From contig NZ_BCYX01000009.1 of assembly GCF_001598415.1 (NCBI RefSeq), forward strand, positions 1-64,000: a DNA stretch of 64,000 bases, read 5' to 3'. The notes under the pieces were generated by a model. It was given only the letters and a program-made list of their open reading frames with translations, did not search any database and was not told the DNA's origin. Each line of letters opens with the position of its first letter. Position 1 is the first letter of the stretch. This document shows, piece after piece, positions 8,464-15,539 of this stretch. The stretch comes from Sphingomonas mali NBRC 15500. GTDB lineage: Bacteria > Pseudomonadota > Alphaproteobacteria > Sphingomonadales > Sphingomonadaceae. The position numbers were made by a program, and so were the translations under genes.

Positions 8464-10839
8464 TTAACCCACCGTCACAAAGCTATCCATCACCCGCTTC
8501 CGCCCGGCCTGCTCGAAATCGATCTCCAGCTTATTTCCCTCGATCTCCGCAATCTCACCATAACCGAACTTCTGGTGGAACACGCGCATGCCGACCGACA
8601 GGTCGCTGCGTCCCTTATTCCCCAAACTCACCGCACTCGCACGGCTCTCCACCACTCGTGCGGGCTCGCGCGTGAACGTCCGGCTCTGCCATTCGCCACC
8701 CGGCTTGGCCGCGTTGAGCGTGCCCGCCGCCCTCTGCCACCCAGGCCCGCGCCCGGTCCCACGTCCGACATCGGCGAACGGATCGCTCCGCTCGCTCCAG
8801 TTCGCGCGCCACAGGCTTTCGCCGCCCGACATGCTGCTTTCGCTGTCGATATGTGCTTGCGGAAGTTCGCCGACGAAGCGGCTGGGGATGCTCGACGTCC
8901 ATTGGCCGTAGATGCGGCGGTTGGCGGCGTGGATGATGATCGCGCGGCGCCGGGCGCGGGTGATCGCGACATAGGCGAGGCGGCGTTCTTCCTCGAGGCT
9001 GGTCAGCCCGCCTTCGTCGAGCGCGCGTTGCGAGGGGAACAGGCCTTCTTCCCAGCCGACCAGGAACACGGTGTCGAATTCGAGGCCCTTGGCGGCGTGG
9101 ATGGTCATGATCGTGACCTTGGCCTCATCCGCCTGCGCCTCATTGTCCATGACGAGGCTGACATGTTCGAGGAACGCGCCGAGCGTTTCATATTCCTCCA
9201 TCGCACGGACGAGTTCGCTCAGGTTCTCGAGGCGGCCGGCGGCGTCGGCGGATTTCTCGGCTTGCCACATGGCGGTGTAGCCGCTCTCGTCCAGGATGAC
9301 TCTCGCGAGTTCGGAGTGAGGCACGCCCCCTCCGCCAGTCAGCTCCGTTAGCTGGTCCCCGTCTCCACGTTCTGGGGAGGAATTTAGCATGCTCCGCCAA
9401 CGCATGATGTCGGTGACCAAATTGCCGAGCGCGCGACGAGCTTGCGGGGTGAGTTCGTCGGTGTCGAGGATGCGCGCCGCGGCGGTGGTCAGCGGGACCT
9501 GTTCTGCACGGGCGAGCTGGTGGACCTTGGCCAACGCCTTGTCGCCGAGACCACGCTTGGGGGTGTTGACGATGCGCTCGAACGCCAGGTCGTCGGCGGG
9601 CTGGGCGACGACGCGGAGATAGGCGAGCGCGTCGCGGATTTCCTGCCGCTCGTAGAAGCGGAAACCGCCGACGATGCGATAGGGCATGCCGATCGAGATG
9701 AAGCGGTCTTCGAACTCGCGCGTCTGATGCTGCGCGCGGACCAGGATGGCGATGTCGTCTAGGCTGGCGCCGCGGATCTGTTGCGCCGCCTCGATCTCGT
9801 CGCCGACACGGCGCGCTTCCTCGGGACCGTCCCAGACGCCGAGCACCTTCACCTTCTCGCCCTCGTTATGCTCGGTCCACAGCGTCTTGCCGAGCCGGCC
9901 CGAATTGTTGGCGATCACCCCCGACGCGGCGGCGAGGATGTGCGGGGTCGAGCGATAATTCTGTTCGAGCCGGATCACCTTGGCGCCGGGGAAGTCCTTC
10001 TCGAACTTCAGGATGTTTTCGACCTGCGCGCCGCGCCACGAATAGATCGACTGGTCGTCGTCACCGACGCAGCAGATATTCTTGCGTTCCTGGGCGAGCA
10101 GGCGGAGCCACAGATATTGGACGCTGTTGGTGTCCTGATACTCGTCCACCATGATGTAGCGAAAGCGCTGCTGGTATTCCTGCAGCACTTCGCGATGCGT
10201 TTTCAGGACGGTGAGCATGTGGAGCAGCAGGTCGCCGAAATCGCAGGCGTTCAGCGCGCGCAATCGCTCCTGATAGGCGGCATAAAGCTGCGCGCCGCGG
10301 CCATTGGCGTAGCGTTCGCCTTCGCCGGCATCGACATCCTTGGGCGTCAGGCCCTTGTTCTTCCACTCGTCGATCAGCCCGGCGAGTTGCCGCGCCGGCC
10401 AGCGCTTCTCGTCGAGATCCTCGGCCTGGATCAATTGCTTGAGCAGGCGGAGCTGGTCGTCAGTGTCGAGGATGGTGAAATTGGGGTGCAGCCCGACCAG
10501 CTCGGCATGGCGGCGCAGCATCTTGGCGCCGATCGCGTGGAAGGTGCCGAGCCACGGCATCCCCTCGACCGCGTCGCCGACCAGGCGGCCGACGCGCTCC
10601 TTCATCTCGCGCGCGGCGCGATTGGTGAAGGTGACGCTGAGGATTTCGGACGGATAGGCCTTGCGCGTCCAGAGGAGGTGCGCGAGCCGTGCGGTCAGTG
10701 CCGCCGTCTTGCCCGTGCCCGCGCCGGCCAGCACCAGCACTGGGCCGTCGGTGGTCAGCACCGCTTCACGCTGCGGCGGATTGAGGCCGCGCAGATAAGG
10801 CGGATCGTCGGGAAGAGAGGCGGGGGCAGGGTCGGTCAC
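8464..10839 (-). CDS. uvrD: UvrD/PcrA-type superfamily 1 DNA helicase
   Basis: A 791-residue 3'-5' DNA helicase for nucleotide-excision and mismatch repair and for stripping RecA or stalled polymerases. SF1 motifs in order: Q-motif LNPPQREAV, Walker A GAGTGKTAALT, motif II VDEYQDTN, motif III GDDDQSIYSWRGA, motif IV EQNYRST, motif V TIHAAKGLEFD and motif VI EERRLAYVAITRAR. The C-terminus ends in a Tudor-like PcrA/UvrD tail (VGMRVFHQKFGYGEI). GTG 10839 is chosen because VTDP...DDPPYLRGLNP fits the usual N-terminus; a TTG at 10875 would add 12 residues. It lies directly downstream of the methyltransferase gene on the same strand. Confidence 0.93.
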   Translation of the reverse strand: MTDPAPASLPDDPPYLRGLNPPQREAVLTTDGPVLVLAGAGTGKTAALTARLAHLLWTRKAYPSEILSVTFTNRAAREMKERVGRLVGDAVEGMPWLGTFHAIGAKMLRRHAELVGLHPNFTILDTDDQLRLLKQLIQAEDLDEKRWPARQLAGLIDEWKNKGLTPKDVDAGEGERYANGRGAQLYAAYQERLRALNACDFGDLLLHMLTVLKTHREVLQEYQQRFRYIMVDEYQDTNSVQYLWLRLLAQERKNICCVGDDDQSIYSWRGAQVENILKFEKDFPGAKVIRLEQNYRSTPHILAAASGVIANNSGRLGKTLWTEHNEGEKVKVLGVWDGPEEARRVGDEIEAAQQIRGASLDDIAILVRAQHQTREFEDRFISIGMPYRIVGGFRFYERQEIRDALAYLRVVAQPADDLAFERIVNTPKRGLGDKALAKVHQLARAEQVPLTTAAARILDTDELTPQARRALGNLVTDIMRWRSMLNSSPERGDGDQLTELTGGGGVPHSELARVILDESGYTAMWQAEKSADAAGRLENLSELVRAMEEYETLGAFLEHVSLVMDNEAQADEAKVTIMTIHAAKGLEFDTVFLVGWEEGLFPSQRALDEGGLTSLEEERRLAYVAITRARRRAIIIHAANRRIYGQWTSSIPSRFVGELPQAHIDSESSMSGGESLWRANWSERSDPFADVGRGTGRGPGWQRAAGTLNAAKPGGEWQSRTFTREPARVVESRASAVSLGNKGRSDLSVGMRVFHQKFGYGEIAEIEGNKLEIDFEQAGRKRVMDSFVTVG

Positions 10840-10878
10840 GCGTGAACACTTAGGGAACGGTGCCCGGCGGGGCAACCG

Positions 10879-12276: not shown

Positions 12277-12392
12277 CGTTGCGACCATGGCGCGGCGGCC
12301 GCCGGGCGGCAAGGCGGCCATAGGGCGCGATTGCCTTGCGCCGCCGAACATCGCATCGTTCGCCTGACGCCGGTTTTGGGAAGGCAAGAACG

Positions 12393-13880
12393 ATGCGACC
12401 ACTGATTCCGCTGACCGCCTTGCTGCTTGCCGCCGCGCCTGCCGAGAAAGTCGACATGGCCGCGGCGATCCTGCCGCCGCGCGCGGTGCCGGGCAAAGCG
12501 GTGCAGCCTTTCGTCAAGCTCGGCGACGCCAGGATCGCGCTCGCACATGTCCGGATCATCGACGGCACCGGCGCGCCCGCGCAGGACGACCGGCTGCTGC
12601 TGATCGACGGCGGCAAGATCGTGGGGATCGGCGCAGGCGGCGATCCCGTGCCGGCGGGATATCGCGTCATCGACGCGACCGGGCAAACCGTGTTGCCCGG
12701 CATCGTCGGCATGCACGACCATATGTATTATGCCGCACGGCCCAATCTGACCTCCGAGGGCAAGTCGGAACCGCCGATCATGGTGCCCGAAATGGCGTTC
12801 AGCTCGCCCCGTATGTATCTGGCGGCGGGCGTCACCACGATGCGGACGACGGGCGCGGTCGAGCCGGCAACCGACGTCAATATCAAGCGCGCGATCGATC
12901 GCGGCGATCTGCCCGGCCCGCATATGGACGTGACCGGCCCGTATCTAGAAGGGGCGAGCAGCCCGTTCATCCAGATGCAGCGGTTGAAGGATGCCGACGA
13001 TGCCCGCCGCGTCGTCGCCTTCTGGGCGGATCATGGCGTGACCTCGTTCAAAGCGTACATGAACATCACCCGCGACGAGCTCAAGGCGGCGATCGACGAG
13101 GCGCATCGTCGTGGGCTGAAGCTCACCGGGCATCTGTGTTCGGTGACCTATCCCGAGGCGGCGGCGCTGGGGATCGACGATCTGGAGCACGGCTTCTTCG
13201 TCAATACGCAGCTCGACCCGGGCAAGTCACCGGACAAATGCCCGGACAGCGGCGGCGACCCCACCTTGACCGCGATGACGCCCGGCAGTGCTGCGGGTGC
13301 TGCGTTGATAAAGATATTGGTCGACCGTCATGTGGCGGTGACCTCGACCTTGCCGGTGTTCGAGGATGCGTCACCTGCCTACAAGATCCTTCCTCCGCGC
13401 CAGTTGGAGTTGCTGACGGCGGAGGCGCGCACAGCCTATCTTTACGGCTTTGCCCGGGTCGGCCGCCGCAGCGACGCCGCGCGGGCGGAACTTGCGACAC
13501 TCTGGACCAATGAGCTTGCCATGGAGCGCGCCTTCGTCGCGGCGGGCGGTCTGTTGCTGGCCGGACCGGATCCCACCGGCGACGGCCATGTGTTGCCCGG
13601 ATTCGGCGACCAGCGCGCGATCGAATTGCTGGTCGATGCCGGGTTCACCCCGCTCGAGGCGATTCGCATCGGCACGTTCAACGGCGCTACCTATCTGGGG
13701 CTGGCCGATCGCATCGGCTCGATCGCGGTCGGCAAGCACGCCGATCTGCTGCTCGTCCGTGGCGATCCGTCGCGGCGCATCGCCGACATCGAGAATGTCG
13801 AGACGGTGTTCAAGGATGGCGTCGGTTATGATCCGGCGGCGCTGCTGGCATCGGTGCGAGGGCGCTACGGCCAATATTGA
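12393..13880 (+). CDS. Secreted amidohydrolase family protein
   Basis: A 495-residue metal-dependent hydrolase of the amidohydrolase superfamily (imidazolonepropionase/prolidase-like subgroup). An N-terminal signal peptide (MRPLIPLTALLLAAAPA) points to the periplasm. The metal-binding H-x-H is in GMHDHMYY; further ligands are probably H in KLTGHLC and LEHGF, and D in LAGPDPTGDG. The C-terminal GKHADLLLVRGDP strand closes the small beta-sandwich typical of the family. Substrate unknown; members hydrolyse cyclic amides or peptides. ATG 12393 follows AAGG at 12381-12384. The C-terminus is followed by the structured RNA region. Confidence 0.87.
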   Translation: MRPLIPLTALLLAAAPAEKVDMAAAILPPRAVPGKAVQPFVKLGDARIALAHVRIIDGTGAPAQDDRLLLIDGGKIVGIGAGGDPVPAGYRVIDATGQTVLPGIVGMHDHMYYAARPNLTSEGKSEPPIMVPEMAFSSPRMYLAAGVTTMRTTGAVEPATDVNIKRAIDRGDLPGPHMDVTGPYLEGASSPFIQMQRLKDADDARRVVAFWADHGVTSFKAYMNITRDELKAAIDEAHRRGLKLTGHLCSVTYPEAAALGIDDLEHGFFVNTQLDPGKSPDKCPDSGGDPTLTAMTPGSAAGAALIKILVDRHVAVTSTLPVFEDASPAYKILPPRQLELLTAEARTAYLYGFARVGRRSDAARAELATLWTNELAMERAFVAAGGLLLAGPDPTGDGHVLPGFGDQRAIELLVDAGFTPLEAIRIGTFNGATYLGLADRIGSIAVGKHADLLLVRGDPSRRIADIENVETVFKDGVGYDPAALLASVRGRYGQY

Positions 13881-13882
13881 CC

Positions 13883-13919
13883 CCGAAAAGACGGGGCGGT
13901 TCCGGGAAGAACCGCCCCG
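13883..13919 (-). terminator. Intrinsic terminator of RNA copy 1
   Basis: Minus-strand stem CGGGGCGGTTC / GAACCGCCCCG (13909-13919 with 13892-13902), 6-base loop, then GTCTTTT. The T-tract is on the minus strand only, so it does not serve the upstream plus-strand amidohydrolase gene. Confidence 0.6.
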
Positions 13920-14012
13920 CAGTTCGGGAAGAGCCGGCACATGGGGATGGACCGGCGCTCGCGGTCAGCAAGGGGCCTTCCGCGAGCGGCGCTCTGGGCG
14001 CGATTTGTCGCA
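13883..14012 (-). ncRNA. Structured small RNA candidate, copy 1
   Basis: Minus-strand transcript candidate with three hairpins in 5'-3' order: a perfect 9-base stem (13980-13988/13956-13964), a 5-base stem (13952-13956/13933-13937) and a perfect 11-base terminator stem (13909-13919/13892-13902) followed by GTCTTTT. Loops are C-rich on the RNA strand (AAGGCCCCUUGCUGA; UCCAUCCCCAUG), complementary to Shine-Dalgarno-type sequences. The layout is shared with copy 2, 215 bases upstream, including a TGCGACAAA block before hairpin 1 (14004-14012). TTGACA (minus strand, 14019-14024) could be a -35 element, but no good -10 was found. No reading frame here looks coding. Confidence 0.55.
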
Positions 14013-14097
14013 CGCGCGTGTCAATCTTGTATCAAAATGTCGCAACGCGAAAAAAGAGCGCGATCATCGGCGGGCCTCGTTCGCGGCCATGCCGGGC

Positions 14098-14133
14098 AAA
14101 AAAAGGGGGGCGGTCCGCAGGTGGAACCGCCCC
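14098..14133 (-). terminator. Intrinsic terminator of RNA copy 2
   Basis: Minus-strand stem GGGGCGGT/ACCGCCCC (14126-14133 with 14107-14114), then a C-run and seven T (14098-14104 on the opposite strand as A). A textbook factor-independent terminator on the minus strand. Confidence 0.75.
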
Positions 14134-14240
14134 GTAGTTCAGGGAGGACCGGCCCACAGGGGGAGGGGGCCGGTACAAACCGCGGCAAGCAAGGGGAAGA
14201 ACTCTCCGCGGCAAGGCATAGGTAGGCGCACTTTGTCGCA
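14098..14240 (-). ncRNA. Structured small RNA candidate, copy 2
   Basis: Minus-strand candidate homologous in layout to copy 1. Hairpin 1 has CCGCGG arms (14206-14211/14180-14185) with loop AGAGUUCUUCCCCUUGCUUG. Hairpin 2 has perfect 8-base arms (14167-14174/14148-14155) with loop CCUCCCCCUGU, a strong anti-Shine-Dalgarno sequence. Hairpin 3 (14126-14133/14107-14114, extended past one bulge) is followed by seven T. The blocks GAACT-CGGGGCGG and CCCCTTGCT are shared with copy 1, as is TGCGACAAA (14232-14240). C-rich exposed loops on tandem three-hairpin RNAs recall the alphaproteobacterial CcsR/'cuckoo' RNAs; that link is inference. Confidence 0.6.
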
Positions 14241-14291
14241 GCGCAATGTCGCAATTGTTGCAAATTGTCGCAGGCTGCGTGCAGTGGGCGC

Positions 14292-15539
14292 ATGCACCCG
14301 ATCATCGCCAATCGCCGCATCCTGCTCGCCGCCCTGGTTGGCACCTCGGTCGAGTTTTACGACTTCTATATCTACGCGACCGCCGCCGCTCTGGTGCTCG
14401 GGCCGCTGTTTTTCCCCTCGTCATCCGACACCGCGCAATTGCTGTCGGCTTATGCCAGCTTCGGGCTCGCCTTCGTCGCGCGCCCGGTCGGGGCCGCGGT
14501 GTTCGGCCATTTCGGCGACCGGATCGGGCGCAAATCGACCCTGGTCGCCAGCCTGATGCTGATGGGTGCGTCGACATTGCTGATCGCCTTCCTGCCGACT
14601 TATCAGCAGATCGGCTGGTGGGCGCCGTTATTGCTGTGCGTGCTCCGCTTCGGCCAGGGGTTCGGCCTCGGCGGCGAGTGGGGCGGGGCGGCGCTGCTTG
14701 CGGTCGAGAACGCGCCTGACGGCTGGCGCGGCCGGTTCGGCACCGCGCCGCAAATGGGCGCGCCGATCGGGTTCATCGCGGCGAACGGCCTGTTCCTGAT
14801 CCTGGGCGTGACGTTGACGCCCGAGCAGTTTCGCGACTGGGGATGGCGGCTGCCGTTCCTGGCAAGCGCGATCCTCGTCGGACTAGGACTGTGGGTGCGG
14901 CTCAAGGTGAGCGAGACTCCGGCATTCAAGCGCGTGCTCGCAGAGGGGCCGCCGCCGAGCGTTCCGCTGGGCGAAATGGCGCGCGATCATCTCGGCGCGG
15001 TGGTGCGCGGGACGCTAGCGGTGGTGGCGTGTTTCGCGATCTTCTACATCGCGACCGCGTTCGCACTCGGGTACGGCACGACCAAGCTCGGACACGCCAA
15101 ACAAGCGTTCCTCGGCGTCCAGCTCGTCGCCATCCTGTTCATGGCCGCGGGCATCGCGATCGCCGGCTGGTGGAGCGACCGGTCGAACCCGCGGACGGTG
15201 CTGATGTGGGGATGCGCAGGGACGGTGGCCGCGGGCATGCTGTTGGCGCCGTTGATGGCCGGGCCGCTCGCGCTGGCCGGCCTGTTCCTGGCCTTCGCGC
15301 TGTTCGTAATGGGGTTTGTCTATGGGCCGGTCGGGGCTTGGTTGCCCGATCAGTTCCCGGCGCGCGTGCGCTATACCGGGGCGTCGATCGCGTTCAATGT
15401 CGGCGGCGTGATCGGCGGCGCGTTAACTCCGTTCGCGGCGCAGGCGTTGTCGGCGCGCGGTCTTGGCTGGGTCGGTCTGTATCTGGCGGCGGCCGGCGTA
15501 CTGAGCTGGATTGGGCTCGCGGTGTCGCGCCGCCGCTAA
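14292..15539 (+). CDS. MFS transporter, metabolite:H+ symporter (MHS) family
   Basis: A 415-residue inner-membrane symporter with 12 predicted helices. The N-terminal VGTSVEFYDFYIYATAAALVLGPLFFP is typical of the MHS family (KgtP, ProP, ShiA relatives), which import organic acids, betaines or shikimate with protons. The MFS signature between helices 2 and 3 is GHFGDRIGRKSTL, and RFGQGFGLGGEWGGAALL marks helix 4. Substrate cannot be assigned. ATG 14292 is chosen; the frame is open a few codons upstream. It ends directly against the convergent small gene. Confidence 0.88.
   Translation: MHPIIANRRILLAALVGTSVEFYDFYIYATAAALVLGPLFFPSSSDTAQLLSAYASFGLAFVARPVGAAVFGHFGDRIGRKSTLVASLMLMGASTLLIAFLPTYQQIGWWAPLLLCVLRFGQGFGLGGEWGGAALLAVENAPDGWRGRFGTAPQMGAPIGFIAANGLFLILGVTLTPEQFRDWGWRLPFLASAILVGLGLWVRLKVSETPAFKRVLAEGPPPSVPLGEMARDHLGAVVRGTLAVVACFAIFYIATAFALGYGTTKLGHAKQAFLGVQLVAILFMAAGIAIAGWWSDRSNPRTVLMWGCAGTVAAGMLLAPLMAGPLALAGLFLAFALFVMGFVYGPVGAWLPDQFPARVRYTGASIAFNVGGVIGGALTPFAAQALSARGLGWVGLYLAAAGVLSWIGLAVSRRR

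Follow-up and report, generated by a model that had tools for sequence, protein, structure and literature searches.

Two putative small RNA genes of an alphaR8-like family in Sphingomonas mali

Two neighbouring blocks on the minus strand of the Sphingomonas mali NBRC 15500 genome, situated between an amidohydrolase gene and an MFS/sugar transporter gene, have the layout of small RNAs (sRNAs), and are probably two sRNA genes of an alphaR8-like branch that has diverged and that would block ribosome-binding sites by its C-rich loops and linker. The family to which they belong is a genus-wide variant of an alphaR8-like RNA; a few species also have a second copy, in which the pairing elements are changed. 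Sphingomonas species are common in plants, soil and water, and genes such as nutrient-uptake receptors would probably be switched off by these RNAs, the C-rich loops of which are predicted to be able to cover ribosome-binding sites. According to the proposed mechanism, each block would be a separate sRNA gene of about 105–115 nt with its own promoter box and terminator, and both genes would belong to one Sphingomonas-wide family representing a diverged branch related to alphaR8 (suhB/MmgR/SisA). Two covarying hairpins would expose C-rich loops, and a single-stranded linker would expose another C/U-rich stretch; loops and linker would pair with the G/A-rich ribosome-binding sites of mRNAs and thereby block translation, with Hfq probably needed for pairing. 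Copy B would retain the pairing elements of the family, and copy A, found beside copy B in a few species, would carry changed pairing elements and probably have other targets.

At the Rfam cut-off, the only match in the window (the whole stretch of 64,000 nucleotides analysed) is a tRNA. An earlier note on this DNA, made from the letters alone, had described homologous, structured, tandem RNAs with anti-Shine-Dalgarno-like loops, and this description is supported: the two blocks lie where it put them on the minus strand (Table 1), and the stems that it quoted as well as the loop CCUCCCCCUGU are correct on checking. When compared with dinucleotide shuffles, the minus-strand folds have z-scores of -3.8 for copy B (14228-14093) and -5.7 for copy A (14009-13880), with 0 of 200 shuffles as good in either case, and the plus-strand folds are weaker (-1.4 and -3.7, respectively). 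Three C-rich stretches of copy B are mostly unpaired by partition function, and the interpretation of the loops as anti-Shine-Dalgarno elements is likely. Other parts of the description need to be modified. A terminator with a T-run had been assigned to each copy; that of copy B is flagged by a terminator scan, but that of copy A has only four consecutive T and is not. The ‘GAACT link’ does exist as a linker, but its actual sequence, in copy B as in 66 of 83 family members, is UCCCUGAACU, and as such it bears an additional C/U-rich stretch complementary to ribosome-binding sites; the linker of copy A is without the CUCCCU found in that of copy B. The TGCGACAAA block, counted as a part of the RNA, is located upstream of it, within a conserved promoter-like box. 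The core of copy A hairpin 1, GGCCCCUUGC, is kept in three relatives.

Table 1. Coordinates of the two RNA-like units and of neighbouring features in the window.
Feature	Position	Strand	Basis or composition
MFS/sugar transporter gene, divergent	14265..15539	(+)	Pfam; ORF as listed, true start possibly further in
TGCGACA/TTGCAACA repeats, farther upstream of copy B box	~14255-14272	(-)	
Copy B promoter-like box, GACA-N7-GCGACA	14234..14250	(-)	exact match; family conservation
Copy B, whole RNA	~14212 to ~14098	(-)	hairpin 1, hairpin 2, single-stranded linker, terminator hairpin
Copy B hairpin 1, C-rich loop UUCUUCCCCUUGCU	14179..14212	(-)	fold; helix 1 covariation
Copy B hairpin 2, anti-Shine-Dalgarno-like loop CCUCCCCCUGU	14148..14174	(-)	fold; helix 2 covariation, 8/8 pairs changed on both sides
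Copy B single-stranded linker CCUCCCUGAACUAC, alphaR8-like	14134..14147	(-)	suhB alignment; mostly unpaired by partition function
Copy B intrinsic terminator and T-run	14098..14133	(-)	fold; terminator scan; exact match
Copy A promoter-like box, GACA-N7-GCGACA	14006..14022	(-)	exact match; family conservation
Copy A, whole RNA	~13988 to ~13886	(-)	hairpin 1, hairpin 2, single-stranded linker, terminator hairpin
Copy A hairpin 1, loop around GGCCCCUUGCUGA	13956..13988	(-)	fold
Copy A hairpin 2, loop AUCCCCAU	13933..13956	(-)	fold; loop identical across all four copy-A sequences
Copy A linker UCUUCCCGAACUGC	13919..13932	(-)	identical across all four copy-A sequences
Copy A terminator hairpin and short T-run	13886..13918	(-)	fold; unflagged by terminator scan
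Amidohydrolase gene (Amidohydro_1), convergent; not an FGase	12336..13880	(+)	Pfam
UvrD/PcrA-type helicase gene	8464..10875	(-)	Pfam

Both copies belong to one Sphingomonas-wide RNA family. DNA search detects relatives in 5 of 40 other genomes, and a covariance-model search extends this: a model built from four relatives and including no window sequence (R1) recovers both window copies (E 5.0e-9 and 7.2e-9) and gives matches for 23 of 41 genomes of the genus, three of which rest, as judged by eye, on a chance match (G043) or on one-hairpin forms (G023, G002). Before a second model (R2) was built from 21 sequences, the window copies among them, loci without a linker (L066, L068), one overlapping another (L069, with L063) and the one-hairpin L063 and L065 were excluded. 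R2 matches at E <= 0.001 are present in 134 of 250 Sphingomonas genomes, of which 102 are below 1e-6, bearing in mind that the training genomes belong to the same draw and that the 134 include weak matches taken by score. Matches occur in 21 of 249 genomes drawn from the family, two of them from the genus itself, and in 14 of 385 drawn from the class, own genome included. The shortened relatives L063 (G023) and L065 (G002) consist of a single hairpin with a UUCCCCCUC loop, a linker CUCCCCGAACU and a terminator, and carry a similar upstream box.

The covariation analysis was based on 86 loci given to R2, which yielded 90 matches, 83 of them distinct. Among the distinct members, 92.2% of the cells at paired positions can pair vs 71.4% in shuffles, and 440 cells are changed on both sides vs 138, neither value being reached in any of 500 shuffles; two-sided changes affect 21 of 27 pairs vs a mean of 18.8, which 3 of 500 shuffles reach. 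These figures are somewhat inflated, since the alignment was fitted to the structure; when partners are shifted by 1–3 columns, only 36–48% are paired. By helix, two-sided changes are found in seven of eight pairs of helix 1, in all eight of helix 2 and in six of 11 of the terminator, the other five terminator pairs being invariant. A smaller alignment of 21 sequences is in agreement, and the compensatory change that had been read from the two copies only is thus confirmed on 83 distinct sequences. Both hairpin stems are variable, and the linker fits UCCC[UC]G[AG]ACU in 78 of the 83; CCCC is present in the loop of hairpin 1 in 74 and of hairpin 2 in 69. Information per column amounts to 1.66 bits in the linker, 0.96 in the stem of hairpin 1 and 0.63 in that of hairpin 2, and the 1.05 and 1.07 bits of the hairpin 1 and hairpin 2 loops are only modestly above the hairpin 1 stem. 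The lengths of the distinct members spread over all three classes modulo 3 (27, 40 and 16), in line with the non-coding nature proposed at the outset, and a coding explanation was dropped on these grounds.

Upstream of the RNAs lies a conserved GACA-N7-GCRACA box; with at most one mismatch, the pattern GACA-N9-RACA is found in 71 of 90 family members vs 5 of 90 shuffled upstream regions. The distance between the box and the start of the model is 17–21 bases (19 in 48 of the 71), and in those 71 members an invariant A follows the box, which may be the A of a -10 element. A consensus scan found no sigma-70-type promoter pair, which suggests an activator; the box would then function as a promoter element, probably an activator-dependent one. 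The related pattern GACAY-N6-GCRACA has 9–16 sites per genome in a scan of seven genomes vs 1–4 for the reversed pattern, and inspection of six such sites did not settle the identity of the regulator. Four published motifs, taken from the accessible parts of their sources, show no clear fit by eye: TGA-N8-TGA of CenR (PMC9275681), TTGC-N3-GCAA of Caulobacter ChvI and N-GCC-N8-GCC of Sinorhizobium (both PMC9731502), and the Sinorhizobium CenR motif (PMC9561847).

By sequence model, by layout and by the neighbour gene of hits outside the genus, the nearest known family is alphaR8/suhB, to which MmgR of Sinorhizobium and SisA-D of Caulobacter belong. The suhB model (RF00519) aligns over its full length with copy B at 29.1 bits (E 0.0006), and scores 28.7 bits with the RNAs of two relatives and 15.0 bits with copy A, the Rfam cut-off being 41 bits. 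In the accessible text of PMC12559287, alphaR8 RNAs are defined by a single-stranded 10-mer, UUUCCUCCCU, downstream of a hairpin; the gene for N-formylglutamate amidohydrolase (FGase) is their usual, though not universal, neighbour, and some genera have several copies (PMC12559287). The Sphingomonas RNAs resemble alphaR8 in a linker with a CUCCCU-like anti-Shine-Dalgarno stretch followed by GAACU, and in a G-rich terminator; the Rho-independent terminator that belongs to the alphaR8 description is found in copy B by fold and scan and in copy A by fold alone. However, they fall outside the current definition of alphaR8 in score, 10-mer and locus: none of the 83 distinct members has the strict 10-mer, CCUCCCU being present in 17, and there is no FGase gene beside the window copies, whose neighbours are the MFS and Amidohydro_1 genes, or among the neighbours in relatives, where MFS, helicase or acnA genes are found instead. 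They also differ in having both hairpin loops C-rich, a conserved box of their own and, in a few Sphingomonas species, an adjacent second copy with altered loops. Outside the genus, R2, whose training set consisted of this Sphingomonas family only, detects three-hairpin RNAs in further genera and families, with L102, L103 and L106 among the few doubtful ones. By tblastn, 10 of 19 family-level loci (L093-L111) and 7 of 13 class-level loci (L113-L125) are FGase-linked, and Pfam confirms the FGase identity of all three proteins submitted to it; several of the FGase-linked loci show a C-rich loop on a 5' hairpin, and 5 of 17 out-of-genus loci scanned with Rfam are above the suhB cut-off. Given the full-model alignment and the FGase-linked hits, the Sphingomonas family has the appearance of an alphaR8 branch that has diverged and occupies a new locus. 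Three class-level loci of one genus (L118, L119 and L123) hold another kind of three-hairpin RNA, whose linker is CUCCCUGAACUGCGGGGGG and whose loops are CUUCCUCA; no FGase neighbour was found for them, and an Rfam scan of L118 gave no match up to E 0.5.

An independent sRNA family sharing no descent with alphaR8, in which C-rich anti-Shine-Dalgarno loops, linker and terminator arose by convergence, would explain the score below cut-off and the strict 10-mer missing from all 83 members. It would also suit the presence, in the same genomes, of ordinary suhB RNAs with a different, one-hairpin structure. Such RNAs match above the cut-off in 59 of 61 genus genomes and number 0–7 per genome at E <= 0.01; among the matches listed, they have one short hairpin and a linker CAUCCUCUCCUAAAAC (n=35, as 23 and 12) and occupy other loci. 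Those listed (L014-L043, L132, L337-L348) have TTGCA-type repeats upstream; a LysR gene is their neighbour at 23 of 30 and 4 of 12 loci, and an FGase gene was found within flanks of about 1.5 kb in none of the 42. They share their genomes, a C/U-rich linker and a terminator with the family described here, but have a single hairpin and no C-rich loops. We nevertheless regard independent origin as unlikely, as the alignment to the suhB model runs full length, and the out-of-genus R2 loci include several above the suhB cut-off, many linked to FGase and some with a similar 5' C-rich hairpin. Among the texts consulted, and subscription journals may describe others, the only sphingomonad relative is the 61-nt SuhB of Sphingopyxis granuli, which acts negatively on thnR at its 5' UTR together with Hfq, according to the accessible text (PMC6563040).

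The targets proposed for a diverged alphaR8 branch follow from Caulobacter, where, in the part of the source available, the alphaR8 RNA SisA represses many mRNAs, TonB-dependent receptors being prominent and Hfq being involved; it represses a receptor mRNA by direct pairing, its anti-Shine-Dalgarno 10-mer pairing upstream of the start codon (PMC12559287). Plug-domain matches of TonB-dependent receptors number 104 in the genome of the window (G000) and 89 in another (G187). Seventy of the 104 were taken, 69 of them with a start, and compared with 49 control genes, which include some probably mis-called starts and replaced an earlier set of 39 window genes because many starts of the latter were mis-called. 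AGGGG is found upstream of 32 of 69 receptor genes vs 4 of 49 controls (p 5e-6). The hairpin 1 loop of copy B pairs better with receptor start regions than with controls (69 vs 49, p 5e-6), also after correction for general Shine-Dalgarno strength (p 5e-5) and among ATG starts with a good Shine-Dalgarno sequence alone (50 vs 24, p 4e-4; 1 of 200 shuffled loops as good). Pairing of the copy B linker is likewise stronger for receptors (corrected p 8e-4), while the weaker preference of hairpin 2 (p 0.02) loses significance on correction (p 0.075); the loops and linker of copy A have no receptor preference with the same 69 receptors and 49 controls. General Shine-Dalgarno pairing is itself slightly stronger in receptors (p 0.03), and the ordinary suhB linker of the same genome also favours receptor genes (p 4e-4). 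With 15 contiguous pairs, the best single receptor match is that at L310, and 15 of 300 shuffled loops do equally well. A search for ACAGGGGRAG-N2-10-ATG returned 19 rows from 18 distinct places in 10 genomes vs 2 for the reversed control, an excess to be expected anyway of a ribosome-binding-site-like word before ATG. Such sites number only 0–6 per genome in the ten genomes; three of the 18 precede genes for receptors with a Plug domain among four genes scanned with Pfam, the fourth being an outer-membrane barrel with CarboxypepD_reg, and one precedes a 6-codon ORF. The target signal is therefore suggestive and not specific to the Sphingomonas RNA pair. Since this preference extends to the ordinary suhB linker, the control starts are imperfect and the best match is unexceptional, TonB-dependent receptors are likely but unproven targets, perhaps shared with other alphaR8-type RNAs.

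A bolder version of the proposal, which we consider possible but doubtful, is that an alphaR8-like regulator has split into two siblings under one activator acting through the GACA-N9-RACA box, copy B being directed to receptors and copy A to different targets; one signal would in that case reshape nutrient uptake twice. The C-rich loops and linker might, instead of pairing with mRNAs, serve as a decoy that sequesters a protein or a G-rich sRNA. Several similar loops per molecule would suit this role, and Caulobacter alphaR8 RNAs pair with the sponge CrfA, as stated in the part of PMC12559287 available, but nearly all shuffled loops fit receptor start regions less well than the copy B loops, though the fit is not specific, and a decoy appears quite improbable. 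Repression by blocking of ribosome-binding sites is the mechanism that we infer.

The position of the copies in related genomes bears on whether the two blocks are separate genes or parts of one precursor. Two matches are present in 6 of 134 R2-positive genomes (G000, G147, G105, G182, G226 and G189, the second match of G189 being weak), and a single one in the other 128. The pair of G147 is laid out as in the window, but the copies are separated by about 2.2 kb with other ORFs in G105 and by a gene for an aspartyl-protease/PDZ protein in G182, and both copies retain box and terminator despite the intervening genes. With unrelated genes between them in two relatives, the copies look like two independent genes. 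As the same spacer of two sister species holds different genes (G105, L127; G182, L128), it seems to accept insertions. In G226 (L129, L130), a second, partial RNA copy lies at a contig start and is followed by an apparent helicase gene start, hinting at a further pair divided over contigs. An exploratory tree, given without support values, puts the A copies and the B copies, four of each, in separate groups, with the B copies near the single copies of relatives. As for the neighbourhood in the 86 loci, the MFS gene is upstream and divergent in 52; downstream of the RNA, a UvrD/PcrA helicase gene is found in 30, eight of them in opposite direction, and an aconitase gene (acnA), in opposite direction, in 23. 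None of five neighbour query proteins was found at six of the 86.

The overall design had led the earlier note to recall the CcsR/cuckoo RNAs (CcsR1-4) of Rhodobacter and other alphaproteobacteria, tandem copies downstream of a DUF1127 gene which have C-rich anti-Shine-Dalgarno loops as well, and an array of this type, with tandem copies cut from one precursor, would account for both of these likenesses. In the accessible text on that system, four sRNAs are cut by RNase E from one transcript shared with a DUF1127 gene, under an RpoH promoter, and the array ends in a 3' terminator (PMC10253847). Here, no DUF1127-like gene was detected in any of the 86 loci or in the window by a regular-expression search, and each copy has a terminator and a promoter-like box of its own. 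Since the copies are, in addition, separated by genes in two relatives, and 128 of 134 matching genomes have one copy, the proposed kinship is not supported, and a cuckoo-type array is very improbable. Least credible is that the blocks are nothing but terminators or a cis-acting leader, as the strong terminator hairpins and, in some genomes, a codirectional helicase gene downstream might suggest, for the downstream gene is in opposite direction in the window, as is acnA in 23 of 86 loci, and termination leaves the conserved loops and box unexplained.

Two putative sRNA genes of a diverged alphaR8-like branch are thus the preferred reading. With matches in about half of the sampled genomes of the genus and scores below the Rfam cut-off, the family would be a candidate for the global regulation of nutrient uptake. 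It would also illustrate how alphaR8 RNAs can abandon the gene neighbourhood usual for them, acquire another promoter and duplicate, and the split copies in sister species would offer a natural experiment on the divergence of sibling sRNAs.
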